NCBI RefSeq assembly: GCF_000378245.1 | Contig: NZ_KB899505.1 | Coordinates: 1 to 64,000, forward strand | Reading direction: 5' to 3' | Source of the DNA: Aromatoleum toluclasticum ATCC 700605 | GTDB taxonomy: Bacteria; Pseudomonadota; Gammaproteobacteria; Burkholderiales; Rhodocyclaceae | Length of the DNA: 64,000 bases | Part shown: positions 15,625 through 47,624 of the stretch, piece after piece | Layout: each line of letters opens with the position of its first letter | Numbering within the stretch: the first letter of the stretch is position 1 | Notes under the pieces: model-generated | Database searches by the model: none | What the model saw: only the letters and a program-made list of their open reading frames with translations | Told to the model about the DNA's origin: nothing | Translations under genes and position numbers: made by a program

Positions 15625-16788
15625 ATGAAACCCTTCGTCCGACGCAGCCTGATCGTCTTCGTCGTCCTCGCCCTGATTGGCGGGGCGATCTGGTGGTTCA
15701 CCCGCCCGAAGCCCATCCCGGTGCGGCTCGTCGAGGTCGCACGCGGCACGGTCGAGGCGACGCTGTCGAACACGCGCGCAGGCGAGATCGAGGCCTGCCA
15801 GCGCACGAAGCTGTCGACCATCATCGGCGGGCGCATCGACTACCTCGGCGTCAAGGAAGGCGACCGAGTGCAGGCGGGCCAGGTGCTGTTGCGGCTGTGG
15901 AACGAGGACCAGGAGGCGCGCCTCGCGGTGAATCGCGCCCAGCTCGAAACGGCGCGCAAGCGCGTGCAGGAGGCCTGTTCGCAGGCCGACAATGCCGAGC
16001 GCGAGGCGAAGCGGCAGGATGAATTGTTCGAGCGCAAGTTCGTCTCCGCCTCTCGCGTCGAGCAGGCCCGCACCGAGGCACGCGCGCGCCGCGCGGCCTG
16101 CGACACGGCGCGCGCCGACACGCGCACCGCGGAAGCGCAGATCGCCGCGACCTCGACCGACCGCCAGCGCACGGTGCTGATCGCGCCCTTCGCCGGCACC
16201 GTCGCGAAGATCACCGGCGAACTCGGCGAATACTCGACACCCTCCCCGCCTGGCGTGCCGACGCCGCCCGCGATCGACCTCATCGACGACAGCTGCCTGT
16301 ACGTGAAGGCGCCGATGGACGAGATCGACGCCCCCAAGATCCACCCCGGCCAGCCGACACGCGTGACACTCGACGCGATGCCGGGCAAGGTCTTCGAGGC
16401 GCGCGTGAAACGCATCGCGCCCTACATCACGGCAGTCGAGAAGCAGGCGCGCACCGTCGAGGTCGACATCGACTTCGCCCGTCCCGAGGAAGTCAAAGGC
16501 CTGCTCGTCGGCTACAGCGCCGACGCCGAGATCGTGCTGGCCGTGCGCGAGAACACGCTGCGCGTGCCGACCTCCACGCTGCGCGAAGGCAATCGCGTGC
16601 TGCTTTACCGTGCCGATGACGGCAGGCTCGAAGAGCGCGTGGTCAAGGCCGGCGTCTCGAACTGGGAATTCACCGAGGTGCTCGAAGGCCTCGCCGAAGG
16701 CGACCGCATCGCCGCGTCGCTCGAACGCGAAGGGGTGAAGGACGGCGCCCGCGTGCGCCCGGAAGACGAGGCCGGGGCCTCGCGCTGA
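15625..16788 (+). CDS. HlyD/MacA-type periplasmic adaptor of an ABC exporter
   Basis: 387 aa. An N-terminal membrane anchor (about 8-26) leads into a biotinyl-lipoyl-like domain (GGRIDYLGVKEGDRVQAGQ), a long helical hairpin rich in Ala/Glu/Arg (about 90-175), then beta-barrel and membrane-proximal domains. Members link an inner-membrane ABC transporter to an outer-membrane TolC channel, which is not in this window. The ATPase gene starts 8 bases after the stop. Substrate cannot be told; macrolides, peptides or lipids are possible. Confidence 0.88.
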   Translation: MKPFVRRSLIVFVVLALIGGAIWWFTRPKPIPVRLVEVARGTVEATLSNTRAGEIEACQRTKLSTIIGGRIDYLGVKEGDRVQAGQVLLRLWNEDQEARLAVNRAQLETARKRVQEACSQADNAEREAKRQDELFERKFVSASRVEQARTEARARRAACDTARADTRTAEAQIAATSTDRQRTVLIAPFAGTVAKITGELGEYSTPSPPGVPTPPAIDLIDDSCLYVKAPMDEIDAPKIHPGQPTRVTLDAMPGKVFEARVKRIAPYITAVEKQARTVEVDIDFARPEEVKGLLVGYSADAEIVLAVRENTLRVPTSTLREGNRVLLYRADDGRLEERVVKAGVSNWEFTEVLEGLAEGDRIAASLEREGVKDGARVRPEDEAGASR

Positions 16789-16796
16789 GGGCCGCG

Positions 16797-17489
16797 ATGG
16801 CGCAGATCGAACTCTCGGGCATCGAGCGCGTCTTCAAGCTCGGCGACAGCGAGGTCCATGCGCTGCACGAACTGAGCGTGTCGATCGAACGCGGGGAGTA
16901 CGTCGCCGTGATGGGCCCGTCCGGTTCGGGCAAGTCGACGCTGCTGAACCTGCTGGGCCTCCTCGACCGCCCCAATGCCGGCACCTACCGTCTCGAAGGG
17001 CGCGACGTGACGACGCTCTCACCGGACGAACAGGCCGAGGTGCGCCGTACCCGCATCGGCTTCGTGTTCCAGAGCTTCCATCTGGTGCCGCGCCTCACCG
17101 CCGCAGAGAACATCGCGCTGCCGCTGATGCTCGCCGGCATTGCGCCCGCCGAGCGCCATGCGCGCGTGGCGCAGGCGCTGAAGGACTTCGGTCTGGAAAC
17201 CCGCGCGAGCCACCGGCCCGACGAACTGTCGGGCGGCCAGCGGCAGCGCGTCGCGATCGCGCGCGCGACGATCATGCGCCCGGCGGTGATCCTCGCCGAC
17301 GAGCCGACGGGAAACCTCGACCGCTCGACCGGGCAGGACGTCACGCATCTGCTGGAAGAGTTGAACGCTTCCGGGGTGACACTGATCGTCGTCACCCACG
17401 ACCCGGTCATGGGCGGACGCGCCCGCCGGCGCCTGATGATGGAAGACGGGCGCCTGCTGCAGGACGTCCGCGAACCCACTCCCGCATGA
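16797..17489 (+). CDS. ABC transporter ATP-binding protein (MacB/LolD type)
   Basis: 230 aa. Walker A GPSGSGKST (about 41-49), Q-loop FVFQSFHLVPRLTA, signature [14 protein letters not shown] and Walker B VILADEPTGNLD are all intact. It groups by pattern with MacB/LolD/FtsE ATPases that power FtsX-type permeases. One base after its stop comes an ATG opening the first linker mini-ORF, so the ATPase and the two permeases are joined through a repeat module rather than directly. Confidence 0.93.
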   Translation: MAQIELSGIERVFKLGDSEVHALHELSVSIERGEYVAVMGPSGSGKSTLLNLLGLLDRPNAGTYRLEGRDVTTLSPDEQAEVRRTRIGFVFQSFHLVPRLTAAENIALPLMLAGIAPAERHARVAQALKDFGLETRASHRPDELSGGQRQRVAIARATIMRPAVILADEPTGNLDRSTGQDVTHLLEELNASGVTLIVVTHDPVMGGRARRRLMMEDGRLLQDVREPTPA

Positions 17490-17490
17490 G

Positions 17491-17574
17491 ATGAAACTTC
17501 CCCCACGCTCGCGTTACTCGCAGCCCCCCAAGGGGACGCAAGCTTCCCTTGGGGCGGCCCGGCGGGAGGCCTGA
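17491..17574 (+). CDS. Linker mini-ORF, copy 1 (27 codons)
   Basis: ATG opens one base after the ATPase stop (TGA-G-ATG), continues for 27 codons starting MKLPPRSRYS and ending LGAARREA, and its TGA is again followed by G-ATG. Whether a peptide is made is unknown. The reading frame may simply let ribosomes run through the repeat and so keep the operon coupled. No family is recognised. Confidence 0.45.
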   Translation: MKLPPRSRYSQPPKGTQASLGAARREA

Positions 17575-17575
17575 G

Positions 17576-17659
17576 ATGAAACTACCCCCACGCTCGCGTT
17601 ACTCGCTGCCCCCCAAGGGGGCGCAGGCCTCCCTTGGGGCGGCCCGGCGGGAGGCCTGA
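17576..17659 (+). CDS. Linker mini-ORF, copy 2 (27 codons)
   Basis: Same layout as copy 1; the peptide differs at two residues (Q11L, T16A), while three other base changes are silent. Its TGA shares one base with the ATG of the permease gene (TGATG), and its own codons GGG AGG CC-type end supplies the Shine-Dalgarno for that gene. The intact frame in both copies argues for selection on readability, though two copies are few. Confidence 0.45.
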   Translation: MKLPPRSRYSLPPKGAQASLGAARREA

Positions 17660-18867
17660 TGACACCCGCCGACACGCTCCGCTTCGCGACCCGCGCCGCG
17701 ACCGGCTATCCGCTGCGCACCGCGCTGATGGTGCTGGCGATGTCGATCGGTGTGGCGGCCGTCGTCGTGCTCACTGCGCTCGGCGACGGCGCACGACGTT
17801 ATGTCGTCAACGAATTCTCCGCCCTCGGCAGCAACCTCGTGATCGTGCTCCCCGGACGCACCGCCACGGGCGGCCTGGGGCTCGGCAACCTCATCACGAG
17901 CACGCCGCGCGACCTCACCGTGCGCGACGCCGAAGCGCTGCTGCGCGCCCCGCTGGTCAACCGCATGGCGCCGCTGTCGGTGGGCAATTCCGAAATCGCC
18001 TGGGGCGGACGGCTGCGCGAGGCGATGGTCGTGGGCACCAGCGGCGACTACGTCGACATCCGCGCCTTCCACATGGCCGAAGGCAGCTTCCTGCCGCGCG
18101 AGGATCTCGGCCGCGCCTCGGCCGTCGCCGTGCTCGGCACGAAGGTCCGCGAGGAGCTCTTCGGTGGCGAACCGGCCATCGGTCGCATGGTGCGCGTCGG
18201 CGACCGGCGCCTGCGCGTGATCGGCGTGCTCGGCAAGACCGGCCAGGGGCTGGGCATGAACACCGACGAGCTGGTGTTCGTGCCGGTCGCCACCGCGCAG
18301 GCGATGTTCAACACCAACAACCTTTTCCGCATCATCGTCGAGGCGCGCAGCCGCGAGGCGATCGGACCGGCGAAGCAGCAACTCGAGCACATCATGCGCC
18401 TGCGCCGCGAGGGCGAACTCGACGTCACGCTGATCACGCAGGACGCCGTGCTCGGCACCTTCGACCGCATCCTCGGCGCCCTGACGATGGCCGTTGCGGG
18501 CATCGCCGCGATCAGCCTCGCGGTCGCCGGCATCCTCGTGATGAACGTGATGCTGGTCGCGGTCACGCAGCGCACCGCCGAGATAGGCCTGCTCAAGGCG
18601 CTCGGCGCCACCGGCCACAACATCCGTCTCGCCTTCCTCACGGAGGCCGCCCTGCTGTCGCTCGCCGGCGCGATCACCGGATTCGCGCTCGGTCACCTCG
18701 GCGCCTGGGGCCTGCGCATCGCCTTCCCGGTGCTGCCGGCGTGGCCGCCCGACTGGGCCGTGTTCGCCGGCATCGGCACGGCGCTCGCGACCGGCATCCT
18801 GTTCGGCGTGATGCCCGCGCGGCGCGCCGCCCGCCTCGACCCCGTGCAGGCCCTGTCCCGGCGATGA
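17659..18867 (+). CDS. ABC transporter permease, MacB/FtsX family (first)
   Basis: 402 aa. The topology is one membrane segment near the N terminus (about 22-45), a large periplasmic MacB-PCD domain (about 50-240), then three C-terminal segments carrying the FtsX domain (IAAISLAVAGILVMNVMLV, then EIGLLKALGATG). The start is fixed by the TGATG junction with the preceding mini-ORF and its GGAGG. Its end overlaps the second permease by 4 bases. Confidence 0.9.
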   Translation: MTPADTLRFATRAATGYPLRTALMVLAMSIGVAAVVVLTALGDGARRYVVNEFSALGSNLVIVLPGRTATGGLGLGNLITSTPRDLTVRDAEALLRAPLVNRMAPLSVGNSEIAWGGRLREAMVVGTSGDYVDIRAFHMAEGSFLPREDLGRASAVAVLGTKVREELFGGEPAIGRMVRVGDRRLRVIGVLGKTGQGLGMNTDELVFVPVATAQAMFNTNNLFRIIVEARSREAIGPAKQQLEHIMRLRREGELDVTLITQDAVLGTFDRILGALTMAVAGIAAISLAVAGILVMNVMLVAVTQRTAEIGLLKALGATGHNIRLAFLTEAALLSLAGAITGFALGHLGAWGLRIAFPVLPAWPPDWAVFAGIGTALATGILFGVMPARRAARLDPVQALSRR

Positions 18868-46749: not shown

Positions 46750-47535
46750 CTAGTCGGGAATGAAAAGCGTGCGCCCGTCGACATCGAGCCGACGGATCGG
46801 GTGGTCGAAGGCGCGGCTGAGGTGGTCCGCCTGCAGGACGTCCTCGCGCGTGCCGGCCAGCACGCCGCCCTTGCCGTCGAGCAGGATCACATGGTCGGCG
46901 AAGCGCGTCGCGAGGTTGATGTCGTGCAGCACCATCACGACGCCGCGCCCCTCGCGCCCGAGGCGGGCGAAAAGCTCAAGCACGGCGACCTGGTAGTGCA
47001 GGTCGAGGTGGTTCGTCGGCTCGTCGAGCAGGAAGAGCCGCGGCGCCTGCGTCAGCAGCGTCGCGATCGACACGCGCTGGCGCTCGCCGCCGGACAGGCT
47101 GAGGATGTCCCGTCCCGCGAGCTCCGCGAGGCCCACTTCGGCCAGCGCCGCCTGCGCGATGGCAACGTCGGCCGCGCTCTCCCAGCCCCAGCGGCCGAGA
47201 TGCGGGTGGCGGCCGATCAGCGCCGTCTGCAGCACCGAGGCAGAAAAATGATCCGGCTGCTGTTGCGGGAGCAGCCCGCGAAAGCGCGCCGCCGCGAGAC
47301 TGTCCCAGTCCGCGTAGGGGCGGCCGCCGAGGCCCACGCTGCCCACCGTGGGCGCACGCAGGCCGGCCAGCGTGTGCAGCAGCGTCGTCTTGCCGGCGCC
47401 GTTGGGCCCCAGCAGCACGAGGCACTCTCCCGCCGCCAGCCGCAGGCTGAATTCGCAGCACAGCCAGCGCTCGCCCACCTGCAGCGCAATGCCGTCGGCT
47501 TCCAGCAGGACGAGGGAAGAATCCGTCGCAGCCAT
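46750..47535 (-). CDS. btuD: Cobalamin ABC transporter ATP-binding protein BtuD-like
   Basis: 261 aa. Walker A GPNGAGKTT, signature LSGGERQRV and Walker B LFLLDEPTNHLD are intact, in the FecE/BtuD pattern. The ATG at 47535 is preceded by GGAGG that belongs to an upstream linker module, whose TGA shares one base with this ATG. Position between btuC and cobO, under a B12 riboswitch, supports corrinoid rather than siderophore import. Confidence 0.88.
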   Translation of the reverse strand: MAATDSSLVLLEADGIALQVGERWLCCEFSLRLAAGECLVLLGPNGAGKTTLLHTLAGLRAPTVGSVGLGGRPYADWDSLAAARFRGLLPQQQPDHFSASVLQTALIGRHPHLGRWGWESAADVAIAQAALAEVGLAELAGRDILSLSGGERQRVSIATLLTQAPRLFLLDEPTNHLDLHYQVAVLELFARLGREGRGVVMVLHDINLATRFADHVILLDGKGGVLAGTREDVLQADHLSRAFDHPIRRLDVDGRTLFIPD

Positions 47536-47624
47536 CACGCCCTCCGCCGCGCCGTCCCGGGGAGGATGCGCCCCCCTTGGGGGGGTAGCGGAGAACCGTC
47601 AGTTGCGGGCACGGGGCACACCAT
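47535..47624 (-). CDS. Linker mini-ORF between btuC and btuD (29 codons)
   Basis: Opens as TGA-G-ATG right after btuC, runs 29 codons, and ends with a TGA overlapping the btuD ATG by one base. The second half, from SPLPPQGGRI to GTARRRA, aligns with the LPPKGAQ...GAARREA end of the two linker copies at 17491-17659, and it carries the same CCCCCCAAGGGG core. The first half is unrelated. Probably a diverged member of that module; peptide production is unknown. Confidence 0.45.
   Translation of the reverse strand: MVCPVPATDGSPLPPQGGRILPGTARRRA

Follow-up and report, generated by a model that had tools for sequence, protein, structure and literature searches.

Which kind of sequence can fill the whole gap between an ABC transporter ATPase gene and a permease gene with open reading frames, and how does such a sequence come to lie there? 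This question is raised by positions 17490-17659 of the stretch of Aromatoleum toluclasticum DNA analysed here, 64,000 nucleotides long and called the window below.

Tandem units at the window site

The gap is filled by two tandem 85-bp units (Table 1), exactly as the initial annotation had described it. Eighty of the 85 bases are identical between the units, an offset-85 identity against which the best of 2000 shuffles of the gap reached 40. The differences fall at unit positions 10, 33, 47, 52 and 55, and three of the five are silent in the frame of the mini-ORFs; the earlier count of five differences with three silent ones is therefore correct, except that 85 bases are compared and not 84. 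Each unit shows TGA-G-ATG, a frame of 27 codons and the end ...GGAGGCCTGA. Copy 1 is followed by the G-ATG of copy 2, whose TGA in turn overlaps the ATG of the permease gene (TGATG), so that the arrangement first read from the letters, stop-G-ATG, 27 open codons and a terminal TGA at the next ATG, holds in both copies. The two mini-ORFs are translated as MKLPPRSRYSQPPKGTQASLGAARREA and MKLPPRSRYSLPPKGAQASLGAARREA, each ending at the stop. The 3′ core of the unit, allowing up to three mismatches, occurs twice in the window and in none of 100 shuffles.

Table 1 Features of the window site and of a second, divergent linker copy in the window
Feature	Positions	Strand	Basis
HlyD-type adaptor gene, upstream, same gene run	15625-16788	+	PF16576
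ABC transporter ATPase gene (ABC_tran), upstream	16797-17489	+	PF00005, E 3.2e-36
Repeat unit copy 1, 85 bp	17490-17574	+	sequence comparison
Mini-ORF 1, 27 codons and TGA, begins 1 nt past the ATPase stop	17491-17574	+	translation
Hairpin P2 of copy 1, one C-A mismatch, near-invariant in the family	17523-17537	+	
Hairpin P3 of copy 1, with mismatch; GGGAGG in 3′ arm before the next start	17539-17573	+	family covariation, single-sequence fold
Repeat unit copy 2, 85 bp, TGA overlaps permease ATG	17575-17659	+	best R1 match of the genome, 17606-17665
Mini-ORF 2, 27 codons and TGA, stop overlapping the permease start (TGATG)	17576-17659	+	translation
Hairpin P2 of copy 2	17608-17622	+	fold, alignment
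Hairpin P3 of copy 2, arms 17624-17640 and 17642-17658, SD-like GGGAGG in 3′ arm	17624-17658	+	
MacB_PCD/FtsX-type permease gene, downstream	17659-18867	+	PF12704 and PF02687
Divergent linker copy, 29-codon mini-ORF, between FecCD permease gene and ABC ATPase gene	47535-47624	-	R1 match 47529-47587, translation, Pfam of neighbours

A repeat family of Burkholderiales and Rhodocyclales

The unit is a member of a repeat family dispersed in Burkholderiales and Rhodocyclales. The search of the genome and its relatives that the initial annotation had proposed, carried out with copy 2 as the query, returned 10 matches in the unit's own genome and at least one match in each of 12 same-genus genomes (12/12). 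Eight genomes that belong to the order but to other families gave no match. R1, a covariance model of the 3′ half of the unit, gave 12 matches in the whole own genome (E ≤0.1), at least one match in 57 of 101 genomes of the family, own included (E ≤0.001), and matches in 31 of 300 genomes sampled from the order, own included (E ≤1e-4, stricter filters). An exact-pattern scan of named GTDB contigs yielded at least 132 copies in at least 120 loci. Among the matches listed, the titles are mostly those of Burkholderiales and Rhodocyclales, with a few MAGs under other labels; they include Variovorax, Polaromonas, Xenophilus, Hydrogenophaga, Acidovorax, Burkholderia, Trinickia, Thauera and Azoarcus as well as, in Alcaligenaceae, Verticiella and Pusillimonas.

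A MAG labelled Desulfobulbus (L082) carries a linker copy of typical form on a contig that bears the label of another class, by either mis-binning or transfer. No Rfam family reached its gathering threshold in six loci, and the best score of the Rfam covariance models in the window stretch was 20.1 bits against the 50 needed. An HDV-like ribozyme and other Rfam families, which gave sub-threshold matches only, were accordingly rejected.

Filled and empty sites

Among 16 genomes of the genus that have the permease gene, the window site holds two copies in G000 and G003, one copy in G009 and G012, and none in 12, and this series of two, one and no copies identifies the unit as an insertion. The permease ortholog of G002 is 97% identical and no repeat precedes its gene; the empty site reads CCCGCATGA-C-ATGACG. 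Five further junctions with both empty and filled sites lie before tadB, cysN, pgi, a U32-peptidase gene and a gene starting VEFFGLDC, where tadB and U32 peptidase are names that we presume from our reading of the sequence. The cysN junction is also filled in other genera (L068, L074, L076). Before a U32-peptidase-like gene, L229 and L248 retain only about the first 20 bases of the unit, as TAG-A-GTGAAACAACCC[C/T]CACGC-ATG in frame with the gene; this remnant is apparently a deletion scar.

No clean target-site duplication of fixed length was found at 67 non-tandem sites, and this mode of insertion was set aside. The left and right junctions of these sites share a mean longest match of 4.78 bases, compared with 4.38 for shuffled partners (maximum 4.75 in 1000 shuffles), and, given this small excess, insertion may at times duplicate part of the junction. 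Matches of 6 bases or more are in no clear excess, occurring at 14 of the 67 sites against a mean of 8.9 and up to 18 in the shuffles. In L068, CTTCTGATG stands on both sides of the unit at cysN. As read from such junctions, the start and the stop of the mini-ORF often belong to the host junction or to a copy of it, and are not always carried by the repeat (ATGA, TGATG, CTTCTGATG).

The reading frame across the repeat

The frame was assessed at linkers with a close same-strand gene on both sides, with gene calling that was simple and codon-based. Success was defined as a frame opened at the upstream stop that either ends between -9 and +5 of the downstream start or continues in frame into the downstream gene. 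The 72 junctions with different downstream genes comprise 42 that were drawn by pattern, among the matches listed, and 30 from hand-chosen rows. R1 contributed 76 hits, of which 55 entered the test and 21 were left out: inner tandem copies and second hits (L001, L049, L050, L067), both copies of L010 (the window site itself) and L053 (the same place as L036), the array loci L066, L069, L071 and L077, the inverted L045 and L046, and L031 and L072. Of the 132 listed pattern copies, the linker count excludes 12 at edges, 67 that lack a close called same-strand gene on one side or both, and 8 whose start is distant.

In 71 of the 72 junctions a start codon is found no more than 15 nt from the upstream stop, L120 being the one without. 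At 66 of these 71 independent sites a mini-ORF bridges the gap, against 44.3 expected from the three frames (P ~1e-10), a null so permissive that about two of three frames succeed and the test has little room. Sixty-two of the bridging frames end at the downstream start and 4 are fused with the gene. The pattern-drawn part, among the matches listed, bridges at 38 of 41 sites against 26.0 expected (P 2e-6), and the long forms described below bridge at 8 of 8 against 3.3. Failures amount to 5 of the 71 (L094, L169, L170, L036, L017); L033 and L019 fail as well and are uncounted, their downstream gene being common to a counted site. Frequent internal stops, which had been named at the outset as evidence against a coding linker, were thus not found at tight operon copies.

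The length of the insertion carries the same signal. Residues 2, 1 and 0 modulo 3 are found at 45, 19 and 7 of the 71 sites, respectively; where only residue 2 would end correctly, 35 of 37 sites have it, and where only residue 1 would do so, 14 of 15 have that one. When lengths were shuffled among sites, successes averaged 43.9 and never exceeded 57 in 20000 trials, compared with the real 66. The core of the unit is spread over all residues, its length having residues 2, 1 and 0 in 11, 8 and 6 of 25 linkers and in 26, 22 and 8 of 56 other copies (pattern-drawn, among the matches listed), which places the fit to the register at the ends of the unit. Across sites the insertion lengths differ by multiples of 3 (77, 80, 83, 86, 89; 82, 85, 88). 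The stop of the mini-ORF begins -5 to +1 from the downstream start at 58 of 71 sites; counted from where the upstream stop ends, the mini-ORF starts at +1, -4, +2 or -1 at 54 of 71. Judged from these lengths and from the empty sites, the repeat is inserted between stop and start, with a bridging frame matched to the local stop register.

A conserved peptide was considered and rejected, since the frame in which the 5′ third is read changes from copy to copy. What is kept, as far as alignment of the copies indicates, is openness, the frame or total length modulo 3, and abutment, and the peptide varies. The initial annotation had seen in the unit a cassette that carries its own start, stop and ribosome binding site. 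The open bridging frame of that proposal stands, with 66 of 71 sites against 44.3; the fixed coding unit does not, as the peptides differ and the host junction often supplies the start and stop. The ribosome binding site is likewise a partial feature: an SD-like match of at least 4 bases precedes the downstream start at 47 of 72 sites and is missing at 25.

Hairpins and modular forms

The unit is laid out as a 5′ third (CCCCCACGCTC...TTCG), the near-invariant hairpin P2, and the variable terminal hairpin P3 with a conserved loop. Two alignments had the same outcome for P3: A4, made with MAFFT from all 72 linker representatives, and A3, which holds 59 of the 72 after 5 long forms and 8 further rows were left out by eye. 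In the 72 sequences of A4, double changes occur in 13 of the 15 pairs of P3 and in 182 cells, against 49.0 cells in shuffles. The alignment has a covariation score of 0.342; shuffles give 0.123 and slid partners at most 0.090. The score is 0.375 with 59 sequences, and P3 covaries also with 29. The number of pairs with double changes is not beyond chance, as shuffles average 11.3 and 62 of 500 reach 13. On cell count and score, P3 is supported by strong covariation. For P2, 97.7% of cells pair in the 72 sequences and no pair is changed on both sides, which gives it no covariation support; covariation is uninformative here because P2 hardly varies.

For copy 1 alone, the lowest-energy fold is not P3 and is instead an alternative pairing of the P2 and P3 stretches. 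This long-range pairing of two CCCCAAGGG-type stretches is also the fold that some other copies prefer when folded singly, and it is possible in 91.0% of cells among 59 copies. Its covariation score in the same 59 copies is 0.062 compared with 0.063 in shuffles, so that covariation lends it no support, whereas P3 covaries; the pairing may still form.

A long form of the repeat measures about 150 nt from start to start; its 5′ third and its 3′ half are separated by an inner module that contains additional hairpins. It was found at 12 loci (L020, L026, L028, L029, L030, L034, L035, L052, L057, L240, L274, L277), and in all 12 at least one start opens a frame that runs for 49-52 codons and closes near the downstream start. 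The form can differ between species at orthologous junctions, one species having the short form and another the long one; the cysN junction of G011 (L030) has the long form. In Polaromonas, copies at five loci (L118, L142, L151, L155, L188) combine the usual 5′ part and P2 with a different 3′ hairpin module, of the GCGCTGCGCYTGCGG...CCGCGGCC type, and their composition suggests that the family is modular.

Orientation and arrays

Among the matches listed, the coding strands of the flanks relative to the repeat were tallied for 132 copies: 62 are ++, 19 --, 2 +- and 1 -+, with 32 having unresolved flanks and 16 lying at edges. Copies with both flanks resolved therefore sit in same-direction gene runs, mostly in the orientation of the genes. 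A start codon is present near the 5′ end in 46 of 57 ++ copies and 10 of 16 -- copies with the 5′ motif, among the matches listed, and because its presence hardly separates the orientations, the analysis rests on frame. Six of the 19 inverted copies in same-direction flanks (among the matches listed) are tight on both sides, and all six bridge against 3.3 expected; five end at the start and L124 runs into the gene. Two inverted copies of the own genome, L045 (C13:93719-93780) and L046 (C14:63058-63119), leave the strand of the genes open from stop to start (MSAPARPPEGGALPP...), as judged by eye.

The repeat also exists outside linker geometry, as tandem arrays in some high-copy genomes. Head-to-tail units without linker geometry were found at L108, L160, L069, L077 and L331 and in genomes G061 and G079, several of them with dozens of copies. 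On an annotated plasmid of Azoarcus KH32C, genes end and start at unit edges. The initial annotation had held that copies placed without regard to strand or frame would speak against a linker. Such indifference is absent for tight operon copies; inverted copies and non-linker arrays do exist.

Genes joined by the repeat

Seven of eight junctions that were chosen by eye and looked up join parts of one enzyme or complex. These are cysD/cysN, trpB/trpA, nuoF/nuoG, the alpha and beta subunits of lysine 5,6-aminomutase, hydantoinase A/B, E2/E3 of a 2-oxoacid dehydrogenase, and MotA/TolQ/ExbB with ExbD/TolR. The exception is hexR/pgi (L003), which is not a subunit pair. Overlapping gene pairs have been reported as enriched in subunits of one complex, and in the same work six tested gene pairs lost nearly all reinitiation when a gap of about 20 nt lay between them (PMC10666635).

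Proposed role and alternative explanations

We consider it probable that a hairpin-forming beta-proteobacterial repeat inserts, or survives, at tight stop/start junctions of operons and keeps translation coupled there through a bridging ORF. At the window site, a ribosome finishing the ATPase gene would reinitiate on mini-ORF 1, end beside the ATG of mini-ORF 2 and reinitiate again; it would then melt P3, which covers the SD-like GGGAGG, and end on the permease start. The repeat would in this way keep translation of the ATPase and the permease coupled despite an insertion of 170 nt, with the peptide as a by-product. The best reading, similar to that of the MIRUs discussed below, is that a mobile structured repeat may be tolerated where genes are coupled because ribosomes translate through it.

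A more tentative proposal, for which we see some room and on balance hold doubtful, would make the repeat a mobile translational rheostat. Each unit would add a termination-reinitiation step between partner genes, and copy number (0, 1 or 2) would retune subunit ratios with promoters and genes untouched. The device would work in both orientations, and selection would act only on frame and openness, letting the peptide drift. The long form would add about twice the coding length per unit.

Selection might instead concern only the translation of a GC-rich insert, which would prevent Rho termination, with reinitiation not being the point. The open-frame statistics (66 of 71 against 44.3) would be the same under such a guard against polarity, and PMC12548453 summarises how untranslated RNA gives rise to Rho-dependent polarity; however, the guard would not by itself require a stop at -5 to +1 of the downstream start (58 of 71 sites) or a start at +1, -4, +2 or -1 of the upstream stop end (54 of 71), and we regard it as unlikely. 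Another candidate is a neutral mobile repeat that copies the junction on insertion; it would acquire start and stop at no cost and owe its frame to a master copy. Tandem copies and arrays exist, the left and right junctions match slightly better than shuffled partners (4.78 against 4.38), and CTTCTGATG lies on both sides at cysN in L068, all of which would agree with it. We nevertheless find this explanation very unlikely, given that junction matches of 6 bases or more are not clearly in excess (14 of 67 against 8.9, up to 18), that a frozen master copy does not yield lengths varying by multiples of 3 while the core is free modulo 3, and that the length residue fits the local stop register at 35 of 37 and 14 of 15 single-residue sites.

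The strong covariation of the hairpin leads to another account, in which an intercistronic RNA hairpin acts on mRNA stability or transcription in a REP-like manner and the open frame is incidental; Hot et al. found transcripts from a region containing the BRE element treated below (PMC3110155). This account leaves the frame matching unexplained, the window copies have no T run after the hairpin, and we give it little credence. A role for the structure and a role for the coding frame are mutually compatible.

The repeat, common in Burkholderiales and Rhodocyclales, follows a testable rule, namely that it is kept translatable from stop to start where it is tight in operons. If the reading that we favour, translational coupling through the repeat, is true, annotation misses a class of short translated ORFs. 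Tandem copy number may in addition adjust the ratio of subunits, for example in the operons cysDN, trpBA and nuoFG.

Comparison with known systems

The family is very probably BRE, the Beta-proteobacterial repeat element of Hot et al. 2011, as judged from the published description of that element. In that paper BRE units measure 75-91 bp at about 69% GC, with few or no bases between tandem units; copy number varies at orthologous loci, and the units are mostly intergenic, with some loci between convergent genes (PMC3110155). The hosts given are Alcaligenaceae, Comamonadaceae and, once, Azoarcus EbN1 (PMC3110155). The family described here is alike in its 85-bp tandem unit, in holding two, one or no copies at one site in 16 genomes, and in its occurrence in Alcaligenaceae, Comamonadaceae and Rhodocyclaceae. 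Two core strings of the family have no match in the main text of PMC3110155, which omits the BRE sequence, and a scan of fetched loci found no LexA neighbour. The BRE section of Hot et al. gives no function, mini-ORF or structure (PMC3110155); if the two families are the same, a repeat described in 2011 without a function gains the rule proposed above.

REP elements of the GTAG/CGTC families are described as dispersed palindromic repeats of 20-40 bp that may supply a stop codon and may be readable within ORFs (PMC3733652). Our family resembles them as a set of dispersed palindromic repeats touching coding regions, and differs from their 20-40 bp length and GTAG/CGTC tags (PMC3733652) and in that the window genome is without a Y1 transposase match. 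No such match was found there at E 0.001, and 4 of 7 genomes searched have one. A motif scan of 11 fetched Y1 loci gave three partial matches only (L314, L318, L319). A RAYT/REP origin was rejected on the missing Y1 transposase match of the window genome.

Gene pairs with ATGA or TGATG overlaps, as treated in PMC10666635, show short overlaps like those at both ends of our mini-ORFs. They are enriched in subunits, and 7 of the 8 repeat junctions that we looked up are likewise subunit pairs. The difference is that in those pairs the genes overlap directly, whereas our family interposes a repeat-borne ORF. Among titles and abstract openings, with subscription journals largely outside the search, no earlier report of this linker ORF in beta-proteobacteria was found.

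There is a likeness in design to the MIRUs of mycobacteria, whose original description is reportedly that of Supply et al. 1997. They are presented as apparently mobile short repeats that insert at start codons and carry an ORF coupled to the next gene with a spacing of -4 nt (PMC12548453). The initial annotation had considered an in-frame coupling repeat to be unusual; the MIRUs are a precedent for it. In our family, too, the ends of the ORF overlap or abut the flanking stop and start (66 of 71 against 44.3 expected), and insertion at stop/start junctions is shown by empty orthologous sites, at the window site and five further junctions. The MIRUs belong to another phylum and are likened here by description, not by sequence; in our family the terminal hairpin covaries, some copies have the long form with its inner module, and inverted copies also bridge. 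From the description of the MIRUs, the family would therefore be a parallel case in beta-proteobacteria, and, if this is true, the second, in another phylum, of a mobile repeat at coupled junctions with a bridging ORF.
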